Shown one piece after another: positions 40,491-44,445 of a DNA stretch of 52,853 bases. The DNA is taken from positions 1 through 52,853 of the forward strand of contig NZ_QLOE01000011.1 in NCBI RefSeq assembly GCF_003264935.1. The letters are read 5' to 3'. This stretch comes from Methanothermobacter tenebrarum. GTDB taxonomy: Archaea; Methanobacteriota; Methanobacteria; Methanobacteriales; DSM-23052. How positions within the stretch are numbered: the first letter of the stretch is position 1; every line of letters begins with the position of its first letter. Both the position numbers and the translations under genes were made by a program. The notes under the pieces are model-generated. The model saw only the letters and a program-made list of their open reading frames with translations. It was not told the DNA's origin and ran no database searches.

Positions 40491-42031
40491 GAAGAATTCT
40501 TGAGTGGTACCATCCCCTGGATAAAAATAAACTGGCTTATATTATCCCTTCATTGGTTATCTTCATAATCTGTCTTTGGACAACCCTAAACTATAAATGG
40601 CCACTTGGATGGGATATCTTTTATCATATACACCTTGCACAGATTTATATGAGTAAGGGTTTCACCTTCTTTGACCCTCTTTATAATGTACCTGGAGGCA
40701 GGCTCATCAATTATCCCCCACTTTTCCACCTTTTATTAGCTTTTTTCTCCTTAATTTCGGGTTGGAGCCCATTCGAGATTGCAAGGATCATGCAACCATT
40801 CTTCGCGGCTTTTATAGTCTTATCAATTACTATTATAGGCGCGCGCTTCTATAATAGGCTTGCAGGGGTTTTTGCCGGGATTCTCCTAATCTCGGCTTTT
40901 ATAGCTACGAGGATAATTTTACCATTACCAGAGAACATGGCACTGATATTTTTACCAGTTAGCATCTATTTTTATTATAAGTCCATTAAAATTCCCAGAT
41001 TAAAATTTGCATGTGCTTCAGGGGCTTTAATGGGGATTATAGCACTTATACATCCAGCAGCCACGCTTTGCCTTTTCATTTCAATCACATTCATAACATT
41101 TAGTTTACTAGTGGCTGCTTTAAAAGGGGGTATTAACCTTAAGACTGTGATATCTGATTATGGGATTTTCATTTTGACTGGTTTTATTATTGCAAGTGTT
41201 TGGTGGTTGCCCTCATTGTATCTTAAAAGCCTTGGAGCCTCTGGGGGGGTTGCAACAGCTCTGCCAATTTCCGTGAGGACTAGTATCTTGAATTATCCGA
41301 AGGCCCTAGGTTATCTTGTCTGTGGTTTTGCTATTATAGGATTGGCCCGGGCCCATAAAGGTTTTGGTTTGAGGGATCTTTTTATCATATCATGGATCTT
41401 TTCGATGTTTTTACTCTCGAAGGCTTATTATTTTGGAATTAATGTCATCTCATATAGGGTTCTTATTTATATCTTGTTGCCTTTATCTATATTGGCCGGT
41501 TCTGGTTTAGAATTTGCTTTCAGAGCTTTTAGAGAAATGAATAAAAGTGCTGCTAGTGTCTTTTTAATTTTAATTTTTTCATTTTCATTATTCCAGGGTG
41601 TTGCGAATTTTTCAAGTTCGAAGATTGCTGATTTTGGCGTTTTAACAGCCTATGGGAAGGTTTCTATTGCACCGCCCACAGAGGGGGAAGTGGAGCTTGC
41701 TGAATGGTTTGAAGAAGAGGCTGACAAGCCCAAAGTTGCATCGTTTTCAAATTATTATACTGGGATTTTTATAATGGCTTATTCAAGACAACCTGTTAAT
41801 CCCTTGTTAGAACATTCTCAGGGGATCCCAAGGGAGGATGAGCTTCGCAAGGACAGTATAGGGTATCTTGTATATGATAAAAGGTTGAGAATGTATGATA
41901 ATCTTCCATTTGCATGTTCTAAGAATCTTTTATACTACAATCCTAATATGGTTAATTTAAGTGATTTGGGCTGTGATTATCTAGAGAAGGTTTATGAGAA
42001 TGAGGAGTTTGTAGTTTATGCGGTAATCTAA
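40481..42031 (+). CDS. GT-C-like polytopic membrane protein
   Basis: 516 aa, about 11-12 membrane helices. The first loop GWDIFYHIHLAQIYMSKGFT with an acidic residue and histidine after helix 1, then LINYPPLFHLLLAFFSLISG, resembles GT-C lipid-linked glycosyltransferases such as STT3 and PMT families. After the last helix, ~100 hydrophilic residues (EVELAEWFEEEADKPKVASF, IPREDELRKDSIGYLVYDKR) form an extracellular domain. It would move sugars from a polyprenyl carrier; acceptor unknown. GGTGA precedes ATG 40481, within the helicase stop region (10-bp overlap). Converges on nrdJ with a 4-bp overlap. Confidence 0.8.
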   Translation: MSMRRILEWYHPLDKNKLAYIIPSLVIFIICLWTTLNYKWPLGWDIFYHIHLAQIYMSKGFTFFDPLYNVPGGRLINYPPLFHLLLAFFSLISGWSPFEIARIMQPFFAAFIVLSITIIGARFYNRLAGVFAGILLISAFIATRIILPLPENMALIFLPVSIYFYYKSIKIPRLKFACASGALMGIIALIHPAATLCLFISITFITFSLLVAALKGGINLKTVISDYGIFILTGFIIASVWWLPSLYLKSLGASGGVATALPISVRTSILNYPKALGYLVCGFAIIGLARAHKGFGLRDLFIISWIFSMFLLSKAYYFGINVISYRVLIYILLPLSILAGSGLEFAFRAFREMNKSAASVFLILIFSFSLFQGVANFSSSKIADFGVLTAYGKVSIAPPTEGEVELAEWFEEEADKPKVASFSNYYTGIFIMAYSRQPVNPLLEHSQGIPREDELRKDSIGYLVYDKRLRMYDNLPFACSKNLLYYNPNMVNLSDLGCDYLEKVYENEEFVVYAVI

Positions 42032-44445
42032 TTTGGACAGGTCATGTCACGGCATGTACCAGCATATTCGATGGATTCTGGGAACTTTAGAACCTCCCTT
42101 TTTTTACTCCCATAACGATAGACTGTTATGCCTTTGCATCCGAGTTTATAGGCTGCTTTGAAAATCCTCTCCACATCTTTTGGTTTTGCACTTGGCGGGA
42201 GGTTCACTGTTTTTGAAACAGCATTGTCCACGTGTTTCTGGAATGTTGCCTGGATTTTCACATGGAAGATTGGATCTATTTCATGGGCTGTTACAAAAAG
42301 ACGTTTTATATCAGCTGGTATACCCTTAATCCTTCTAATGGATCCTTCCTTGGCGATTCTTTCCATGAGTTCTTTATCATAGAATCCTCTTTTCTTCGCC
42401 TCAACCTCGAAGAGTGGGTTTACATCTACAAGTTTTCTGTCGATAATCTCCCTTATGAATGATACGGCAAATATAGGTTCTATGCTACTTGTAACACCTG
42501 CTATTATGCTGAGCGAACCTGTTGGGGCTATGGTTGTGAGTGTGGCGTTCCTCATATAATCAAAACCTTCCTGGTACCATCTACTATCCTTGAATGCTGG
42601 GAATGAGCCCCTTTCAAGTGCCAGTTCCATTGAAGCTTTCTGGGCTTCAACTTTTATATGTGACATGATTTTATCAGCTACTTGGAGGGCGGATTTGGAA
42701 TTGTAGGGTATCTCTAATTTTATTAGCATGTCAGCGAATCCCATAACACCGAGGCCGATCTTACGGGTCTTTTTTGTAGTTTCTTCGATTTTTTTTATGG
42801 GGTAATTGTTAACATCGATTACGTTATCAAGGAAATGAACCGCTATTTTAACTGTTCTTGATAATTTTTCCCAGTTTATTTTACCGTTCTCTACCATGAG
42901 TTTAAGGTTTATTGATCCAAGGTTACATGATTCATATGGTAGTAGGGGTTGTTCCCCGCAATTGTGCACATAGAATCCGTTGGCATCAAAAGCATTTACA
43001 CCAGGGACTTGGATATCATAGACTGTCTCTATAGTATCTGGTATTATATCTTTAACGGTTGCAAAGGCTCCTTTGGGTTTAACCATTTCTAGTCTGTATT
43101 GTGATGAATCTTCCCGGATCTTTGTGTATATCCCTGATCGTAGGAGCATCCTTTGCAATGTTTTCGCGATTCCAATATCTCCCTCAAATAATATTCTATT
43201 TGGATTAGAGTCGAGAAGGCCTTTGAATAATCCTATGTAGAATCTTGATGAAGCTTTTTCCATTTCATCTGTGATTTTCAAGCCCTCTTCATTGATTGCG
43301 AGGCCCGTGAGGTAACCATCATCCTCCGTGAATTTACCATCCCATTCTAAACTTTTATGCTCATTTAGGACTATTTTATCCCCTATTTTTAGTTCTGATA
43401 ATCTTCTCCATTCAAGTTCGCCATCAGAGGACAATCTGAGGATCCTATGATCTGCTGTGAGGCGTAGGTTGAAGCCTTCAACTGTTTCTAGTCTATATAA
43501 TCTTTTTGCACCGGTTGGGAAGAATCCCGTATATGATTTCCATTCTCTGCCGTTTAATATTATATTACAAGTTTTTCCTGTTAATTCTTTGACTTGTCTT
43601 GGGCCATTGGATGTCATCACCCATGTTTCTGGGCCAACACAAGGGTTTGTGGCTTCTATGCTACCTAGGGCTGGGGTGGGGTTTGTCCTATTTATCGCGT
43701 CCTTGAATAGTATTCCTGGGTCGCCTCTTTTCCATGCCATTTTAACCATCCTATTAAATATTTCTCTGGCCGGCACTGAAGCAGTGACTTCTCCTGTACG
43801 TGGATTTATGAGTTCATATTCAATATTGGAGTCTATACCATCCATGAAACTATCGGTCACCATCACTGAAAGGTTAAAGTTGCTGAATGCGCCCTCTTCT
43901 TTTTTTGCTTCTATAAATTCGATAATGTCTGGATGGTTAACATCTAATATGCCCATGTTGGCCCCTCTTCTCCTTCCACCTTGTTTTATAACTTCTGTCG
44001 CGACATCAAATATTCTCATGAATGATACTGGGCCAGAGGCGACGCCCATGGTTGAGCCTACAATGTCTCCTTTAGGTCTGAGATGGGAGAATGAGAAGCC
44101 GACTCCGCCACCTGATTTGTGGATGAGTGCCATGTATTTAAGTGCGTCGAATATGCTGTCCATTGAGTCTTCTATGGGTATGACGAAGCATGCTGATAGT
44201 TGGTTTATTGGGGTGCCAGCGTTCATTAGGGTTGGTGAATTTGGAAGGAATTCGAGTTTGCTCATTATATCATAGAATTTTTTTGCTGTGGTTTCAGCGT
44301 CGCCACCATATTTTTCTTCTGCCTGTGCAACTGCAAGGGCAACTCTCCTGAACATTCCCTTGGGGGTTTCTAATATTTTCCCTTTTTCGTCTCTGAGGAG
44401 ATATCTTTCCTTGAGGACTTTCAAGGCGTTTTGGGTTAATTTCAT
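42028..44445 (-). CDS. Adenosylcobalamin-dependent (class II) ribonucleotide reductase, intein-containing precursor
   Basis: 805 aa precursor; 578 aa after splicing. Makes deoxyribonucleotides with a B12-derived radical. N-extein 1-268: LEFLPNSPTLMNAGTPINQL, first active-site Cys in SACFVIPIEDS, KSGGGVGFSFSHLRPKGD, GGRRRGANMGILDVNHPDII. The intein (residues 269-495) interrupts NP/CGEQPLLPYESCNLGSI, a conserved site carrying active-site cysteines, so activity depends on splicing. C-extein 496-805: GLGVMGFADMLIKLEIPYNS, TIAPTGSLSIIAGVTSSIEP, C-terminal CRDMTC pair that reduces the active site. No ATP-cone at the N terminus. It is third in a PUA-arfB-nrdJ minus-strand set (26-bp gap). Confidence 0.95.
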   Translation of the reverse strand: MKLTQNALKVLKERYLLRDEKGKILETPKGMFRRVALAVAQAEEKYGGDAETTAKKFYDIMSKLEFLPNSPTLMNAGTPINQLSACFVIPIEDSMDSIFDALKYMALIHKSGGGVGFSFSHLRPKGDIVGSTMGVASGPVSFMRIFDVATEVIKQGGRRRGANMGILDVNHPDIIEFIEAKKEEGAFSNFNLSVMVTDSFMDGIDSNIEYELINPRTGEVTASVPAREIFNRMVKMAWKRGDPGILFKDAINRTNPTPALGSIEATNPCVGPETWVMTSNGPRQVKELTGKTCNIILNGREWKSYTGFFPTGAKRLYRLETVEGFNLRLTADHRILRLSSDGELEWRRLSELKIGDKIVLNEHKSLEWDGKFTEDDGYLTGLAINEEGLKITDEMEKASSRFYIGLFKGLLDSNPNRILFEGDIGIAKTLQRMLLRSGIYTKIREDSSQYRLEMVKPKGAFATVKDIIPDTIETVYDIQVPGVNAFDANGFYVHNCGEQPLLPYESCNLGSINLKLMVENGKINWEKLSRTVKIAVHFLDNVIDVNNYPIKKIEETTKKTRKIGLGVMGFADMLIKLEIPYNSKSALQVADKIMSHIKVEAQKASMELALERGSFPAFKDSRWYQEGFDYMRNATLTTIAPTGSLSIIAGVTSSIEPIFAVSFIREIIDRKLVDVNPLFEVEAKKRGFYDKELMERIAKEGSIRRIKGIPADIKRLFVTAHEIDPIFHVKIQATFQKHVDNAVSKTVNLPPSAKPKDVERIFKAAYKLGCKGITVYRYGSKKREVLKFPESIEYAGTCRDMTCPN
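42961..43641 (-). mobile_element. Intein in NrdJ with degenerate endonuclease
   Basis: 227 aa. N-terminal splice block starts with Cys1 (CVGPETWVMTSNGPRQVKEL); block B has the T-x-x-H in LRLTADHRILRL (Thr62, His65); the C-terminal block is VYDIQVPGVNAFDANGFYVH with His226-Asn227, then Cys +1 of the extein. All catalytic splicing residues are present. Between them, residues 110-120 (YLTGLAINEEG) and 134-148 (FYIGLFKGLLDSNPN) sit where LAGLIDADG motifs belong, but the acidic residues and glycines are altered, so homing activity is probably lost. M. thermautotrophicus has a 134-aa mini-intein in its reductase; this copy is about 93 aa longer. Confidence 0.93.

Follow-up and report, generated by a model that had tools for sequence, protein, structure and literature searches.

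An intermediate-size intein in an archaeal class II ribonucleotide reductase, with a conserved remnant of an apparently dead homing endonuclease

Background

Inteins that carry degenerate endonucleases are known and are predicted by the homing-cycle model, and the intein described here, with such an endonuclease at a much-used insertion site, is of a kind already known. The PhoVMA intein offers a close parallel: neither active-site residue of its endonuclease is present, part of block E is truncated, and the enzyme is dead (PMC8966425). In the MjaTFIIB intein, a degenerate endonuclease has been proposed to set how the two HINT halves are oriented, and efficient splicing was found to depend on it (PMC6801210). 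In M. marburgensis and M. thermautotrophicus, NrdJ was reported to be the only protein with an intein (PMC3087415); a limited literature search for the present intein returned only this mention of a NrdJ intein, and an earlier description may exist.

The present copy resembles the PhoVMA and MjaTFIIB inteins in its degenerate endonuclease but resides in a different host gene, and PhoVMA, unlike it, keeps almost the entire endonuclease fold. The RIR1 mini-intein of M. thermautotrophicus shares the host gene, the NP/C...HN/CGEQ site and the splicing blocks, with 46% identity over the aligned residues; it has no endonuclease remnant, however, whereas about 95 residues of endonuclease are retained here. 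Full-length NrdJ inteins of Thermoproteota occupy the same site and are 46-50% identical over 226-227 aligned residues, but their two motifs are intact (GDG, DADG/DSDG), and they possess 69+10+19+34 aa more of endonuclease. The intein of Methanothermus fervidus shares the site, the type of truncation and the LQRMLLRLG helix, although both of its motif helices are further reduced or lost. What is added by the present analysis is a single site at which the inteins of related archaea represent several stages between full length and 133 aa, together with evidence of purifying selection on a dead endonuclease remnant. The same-site series offers a good setting for the later stages of the intein life cycle, and makes testable the question of whether a remnant joins the splicing machine before its final loss.

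Host Gene, Insertion Site and Splicing Elements

The host gene, nrdJ, lies on the minus strand at 42028..44445 of the window (the whole 52,853-nucleotide stretch of DNA that was analysed), and encodes an adenosylcobalamin-dependent (class II) ribonucleotide reductase of 805 aa, intein included. Profile searches matched this open reading frame to TIGR02504 (5.8e-214) and PF02867 (5.7e-142), as well as to PF00317, in agreement with the host assigned by an earlier reading made from the sequence only. The N-extein (268 aa; 43642..44445, minus strand) ends in ...EATNP and is alignable with intein-free NrdJ as far as NP, and the C-extein (310 aa; 42031..42960, minus strand) begins with Cys+1 (CGEQPLL...) and is alignable with NrdJ models from CGEQ on. 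Translation of the plus strand between them is stop-rich, while the minus strand at 42961..43641 gives a 227-aa intein (CVGPETWV...GFYVHN), exactly the coordinates and length that had been proposed. Intein-free alleles reading ...NPCGEQPL... or ...NPCGETPL... (L006-L014, L076, G141 and G142) span other archaea, bacteria and one viral contig, and therefore place the insertion exactly between NP and CGEQPL, bearing out the earlier claim that the intein sits directly before the Cys of NPCGEQPL. In one genome (G143:C1:960868-961655), the N-terminal half of NrdJ was found in two reading frames, owing to a frameshift or a sequencing error.

The insert is in frame and contains blocks A, B, F and G with the nucleophiles Cys1, TxxH, HN and Cys+1, which identify it as an intein. 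Block A (43603..43641, minus strand) includes Cys1, whose codon is 43639-43641; block B (43441..43482, minus strand) contains Thr62-Ala-Asp-His65 (LTADH), of which Thr62 and His65 are invariant in the intein alignment; and the C-terminal blocks F/G (42961..43026, minus strand) end in His226-Asn227. The PF14890 intein-splicing model matched at 44.3 bits (cut-off 35.8), and both ends of the intein were matched by TIGR01443 and TIGR01445, with TIGR01443 covering the F/G region. All of the splicing residues named in the sequence-only reading (Cys1, Thr62/His65, His226-Asn227 and Cys+1) are present as stated, and since they are intact, the intein is predicted to be splicing-active. Splicing would follow the Cys1 / Cys+1 / His-Asn route that is standard class 1 intein chemistry, in which an N-S acyl shift would be begun by Cys1, the chain would be passed to Cys+1, and cyclisation of Asn227 with the help of His226 would free active NrdJ.

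The Endonuclease Remnant

The region between the splicing blocks had been suggested to contain recognisable but altered LAGLIDADG motifs. Curated models gave faint signals, with LAGLIDADG_3 (PF14528) matching the window intein at E=0.063, below the cut-off, and its best counterpart in the genus at 0.017, compared with 6.9e-26 and 1.6e-22 for two full-length relatives (G219 and G330). A model of the endonuclease regions of three full-length same-site Thermoproteota inteins (G219, G330 and G256) scored 38.7 bits on residues 98-192 (43066..43350, minus strand), against at most 11.0 bits in 2000 shuffles, and a chance likeness to LAGLIDADG proteins was thus ruled out. The Pfam match is weak by itself, and it is the comparison with allelic full-length relatives, the alignment check that had been proposed, that makes the LAGLIDADG assignment certain. 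Judged by this homology, residues ~98-192 are a true remnant of a LAGLIDADG homing endonuclease, and the result named beforehand as refuting the earlier reading, a lack of relation between residues 100-195 and LAGLIDADG domains, was not obtained. A mini-intein has no endonuclease, or a short linker in its place; with a recognisable remnant of ~95 residues, the window intein is not of this type.

Both motifs are altered. Motif 1 (43285..43317, minus strand) reads GYLTGLAINEE, where full-length relatives have GYLMGLMIGDG, so that IGDG has become INEE and the catalytic Asp is replaced; the corresponding residues are INNE in one other species of the genus (G001) and unrecognisable in a second (G002). 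Motif 2 (43201..43245, minus strand) reads RFYIGLFKGLLDSNP, compared with AFYKGFLRGFFDADG in full-length relatives, and here DADG has become DSNP, the catalytic Asp being replaced by Asn (DSN) in 4/4 species of the genus. Downstream, a helix of endonuclease repeat 2, DIGIAKTLQRMLLRSGI (43129..43179, minus strand), is retained, as it is in Methanothermus fervidus. Alignment with G219 and G330 revealed that 69 aa are missing between the motifs, followed by 10+19+34 aa within and beyond repeat 2, and that the splicing part is shorter by a further 4 aa. The two hallmarks of a functional LAGLIDADG enzyme, a catalytic Asp in both motifs and a DNA-binding saddle built from two complete repeats, are therefore both lacking. 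Loss of the catalytic Asp together with such deletions is expected to abolish LAGLIDADG cleavage, and because of the 69+10+19+34 aa deletions and the replacements in both motifs, homing by this intein is, as far as its sequence tells, almost certainly dead.

Selection on the Remnant

The endonuclease had been described in the sequence-only reading as decaying, and this view did not hold. The remnant is conserved in 4/4 species of the window genus, and its dN/dS over residues 98-192, estimated from these four species, was 0.170 (95% bootstrap 0.093-0.249; ratio summed over six species pairs), far from the value of ~1 that is expected under neutral decay, which indicates that it is maintained rather than decaying. 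The ratio is on par with that of the N-terminal splicing half (0.191), the C-terminal splicing part giving 0.070 and the exteins 0.05-0.10 in the same genus. Within the remnant, where the sub-region intervals are wide, values of 0.078 (residues 98-118), 0.065 (119-147) and 0.184 (148-176) were obtained, and only residues 177-192 (43066..43113, minus strand) were near neutral (0.81, wide interval). Codon-position counts agreed with the low dN/dS, in that changes in residues 98-147 fall mainly on third positions, and synonymous divergence among the species reaches ~0.9. The remnant is maintained by purifying selection, the loop at 177-192 excepted.

These data bear on three other accounts of the remnant. 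The conservation of both recognisable motif helices would be accounted for if the endonuclease were still active, for instance by pairing of two shortened units into a homodimer, but this is very improbable, given that the catalytic Asp is replaced in both motifs, at motif 2 in all four species, and that ~130 aa are gone, including much of the DNA-binding part. Passive decay, in which the intein would be passing through a transient stage toward a mini-intein and the remnant would persist merely for lack of time to be deleted, agrees with the reduced size, the loss of both catalytic Asp residues, the near-neutral loop and the graded series of sizes at one site. It is nevertheless unlikely, as the motif helices evolve as slowly as the enzyme itself despite considerable synonymous divergence, and intein size is steady at 227-231 aa throughout the genus. 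The strong constraint on non-catalytic residues, and a host enzyme that supplies DNA precursors, would also suit a new role going beyond that of a strut, such as nucleic-acid binding or temperature- or redox-responsive splicing of NrdJ; half of the DNA-binding sheet has been deleted, however, and the idea is considered quite improbable.

Proposed Role of the Remnant

The reading preferred here is that the window intein is probably a fixed, immobile and still-splicing element, whose dead endonuclease remnant is retained, most likely, as a structural part of splicing. The LAGLIDADG endonuclease has been reduced by four in-frame deletions and by loss of Asp from both motifs, leaving an intein that almost certainly neither cuts nor homes, and the surviving two motif helices and the next helix of repeat 2 are kept by purifying selection. 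The remnant may pack on the splicing (HINT) fold and keep the HINT halves in position; by analogy with MjaTFIIB, such a strut role has close to an even chance of being correct. AlphaFold2 predictions from a single sequence had a pLDDT of 40, and those from six sequences gave a fair HINT part (pLDDT ~66-83, residues 1-90) and a poor remnant (~25-60), and owing to this low confidence, the predicted model does not establish packing of the remnant on HINT. The top 50 Foldseek matches to the model were inteins and hedgehog domains, with Mxe GyrA first and TliVMA and PhoVMA included. A somewhat more tentative suggestion is that the remnant has been co-opted, being required for, or regulating, splicing of the reductase, so that intein size became fixed at an intermediate value throughout the genus, whereas in sister lineages reduction continued to the mini-intein.

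Distribution and Origin

The intein was found in 4/4 genomes of the window genus, at 227 aa in three and 231 aa in one; the copies of the three genomes besides the window's own are 91, 85 and 73% identical to that of the window. In the sister family, eight genomes carry an intein at the NrdJ site; in seven its length is 133-137 aa and in the eighth 211 aa. The 134-aa intein of M. thermautotrophicus (G148) is the known RIR1 mini-intein of strain deltaH. Together with the 203-aa intein of Methanothermus fervidus (G151), this makes 13 NrdJ in the thermophilic families, every one of which carries an intein at the identical site. Clear NrdJ was detected in only two genomes of family f2, both intein-free. 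A search of 398 Thermoproteota genomes yielded same-site NrdJ inteins with both LAGLIDADG motifs intact (G330, 366 aa; G219, 363 aa; G256, 379 aa) and two with altered motifs (G185, 307 aa; G201, 311 aa). For Thermococcales, the NCBIfam profile PRK08332 implies a same-site intein of ~380 aa (N-extein end 859; C-extein start ~1241, extrapolated). The sizes observed at this site thus run from 379-363 and 311-307 aa through 231-227 (window genus) and 203 (Methanothermus fervidus) to 137-133 aa (Methanothermobacter), and the earlier statement that the window copy (227 aa) is intermediate between full-length inteins (363-379 aa) and the M. thermautotrophicus mini-intein (134 aa) was confirmed.

It had further been proposed that this copy is a stage on the way to the mini-intein, showing how the latter arose. 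The intermediate size stands, but the lineage is sister to Methanothermobacter, which makes the copy a cousin, not an ancestor, of the mini-intein. The extein tree was orderly, grouping the window genus with Methanothermobacter at 99, and placing Methanothermus fervidus next at 92. In intein trees the methanogen inteins did not form a group of their own; in the best of these trees they fell in a polytomy with Thermoproteota inteins, and single vertical descent was not rejected (AU p 0.11-0.34), so that the trees neither show nor reject it. A special kinship of the window intein to the Thermoproteota intermediates G185 and G201 was not supported (AU p 0.08-0.12). Inheritance of the intein together with its gene would imply its presence in the common ancestor of the window genus, Methanothermobacter and M. 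fervidus. M. fervidus and the window genus have deletions at similar places in the alignment, although the aligner may itself place gaps alike; under the same proviso of inheritance, these shared places would point to a shortened form in the common ancestor, and it is plausible that the mini-intein descended from such a form. The failure of the methanogen inteins to unite, and their polytomy with Thermoproteota, would be expected had the window genus acquired its intein on its own, by transfer from a Thermoproteota-like source, with a shrinkage independent of that of the Methanothermobacter mini-inteins. This account has appreciable though lesser probability, in view of the orderly extein tree and of the full occupancy of one site in the thermophilic families, and one vertical descent is not rejected by the intein trees.

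Several further inteins were noted. In G185 and G201 (L107, L108), motif 2 reads DAN/DIN, apparently an earlier stage of loss in a separate lineage. The 211-aa Methanothermobacter intein (G150:C1:967954-968586; L037) contains an 84-aa linker without endonuclease similarity, in which PINDKQE occurs twice as a short direct repeat; this linker is absent from the other genomes among the eight of Methanothermobacter. A plasmid search returned no relevant intein relatives, and viral contigs contained only distant inteins. The Moorella phage MTATph1 (L075:2281-4632) encodes a NrdJ, annotated as reductase only, with a 282-aa same-site intein and a degenerate motif, YASNG. The window's genome has two further inteins with LAGLIDADG-like stretches in its MCM/Cdc21 helicase gene (L142, G000:C1:64500-71500; L143, G003), and motif 2 of the first is FDSNG, with the same Asp-to-Asn change as in the NrdJ intein.
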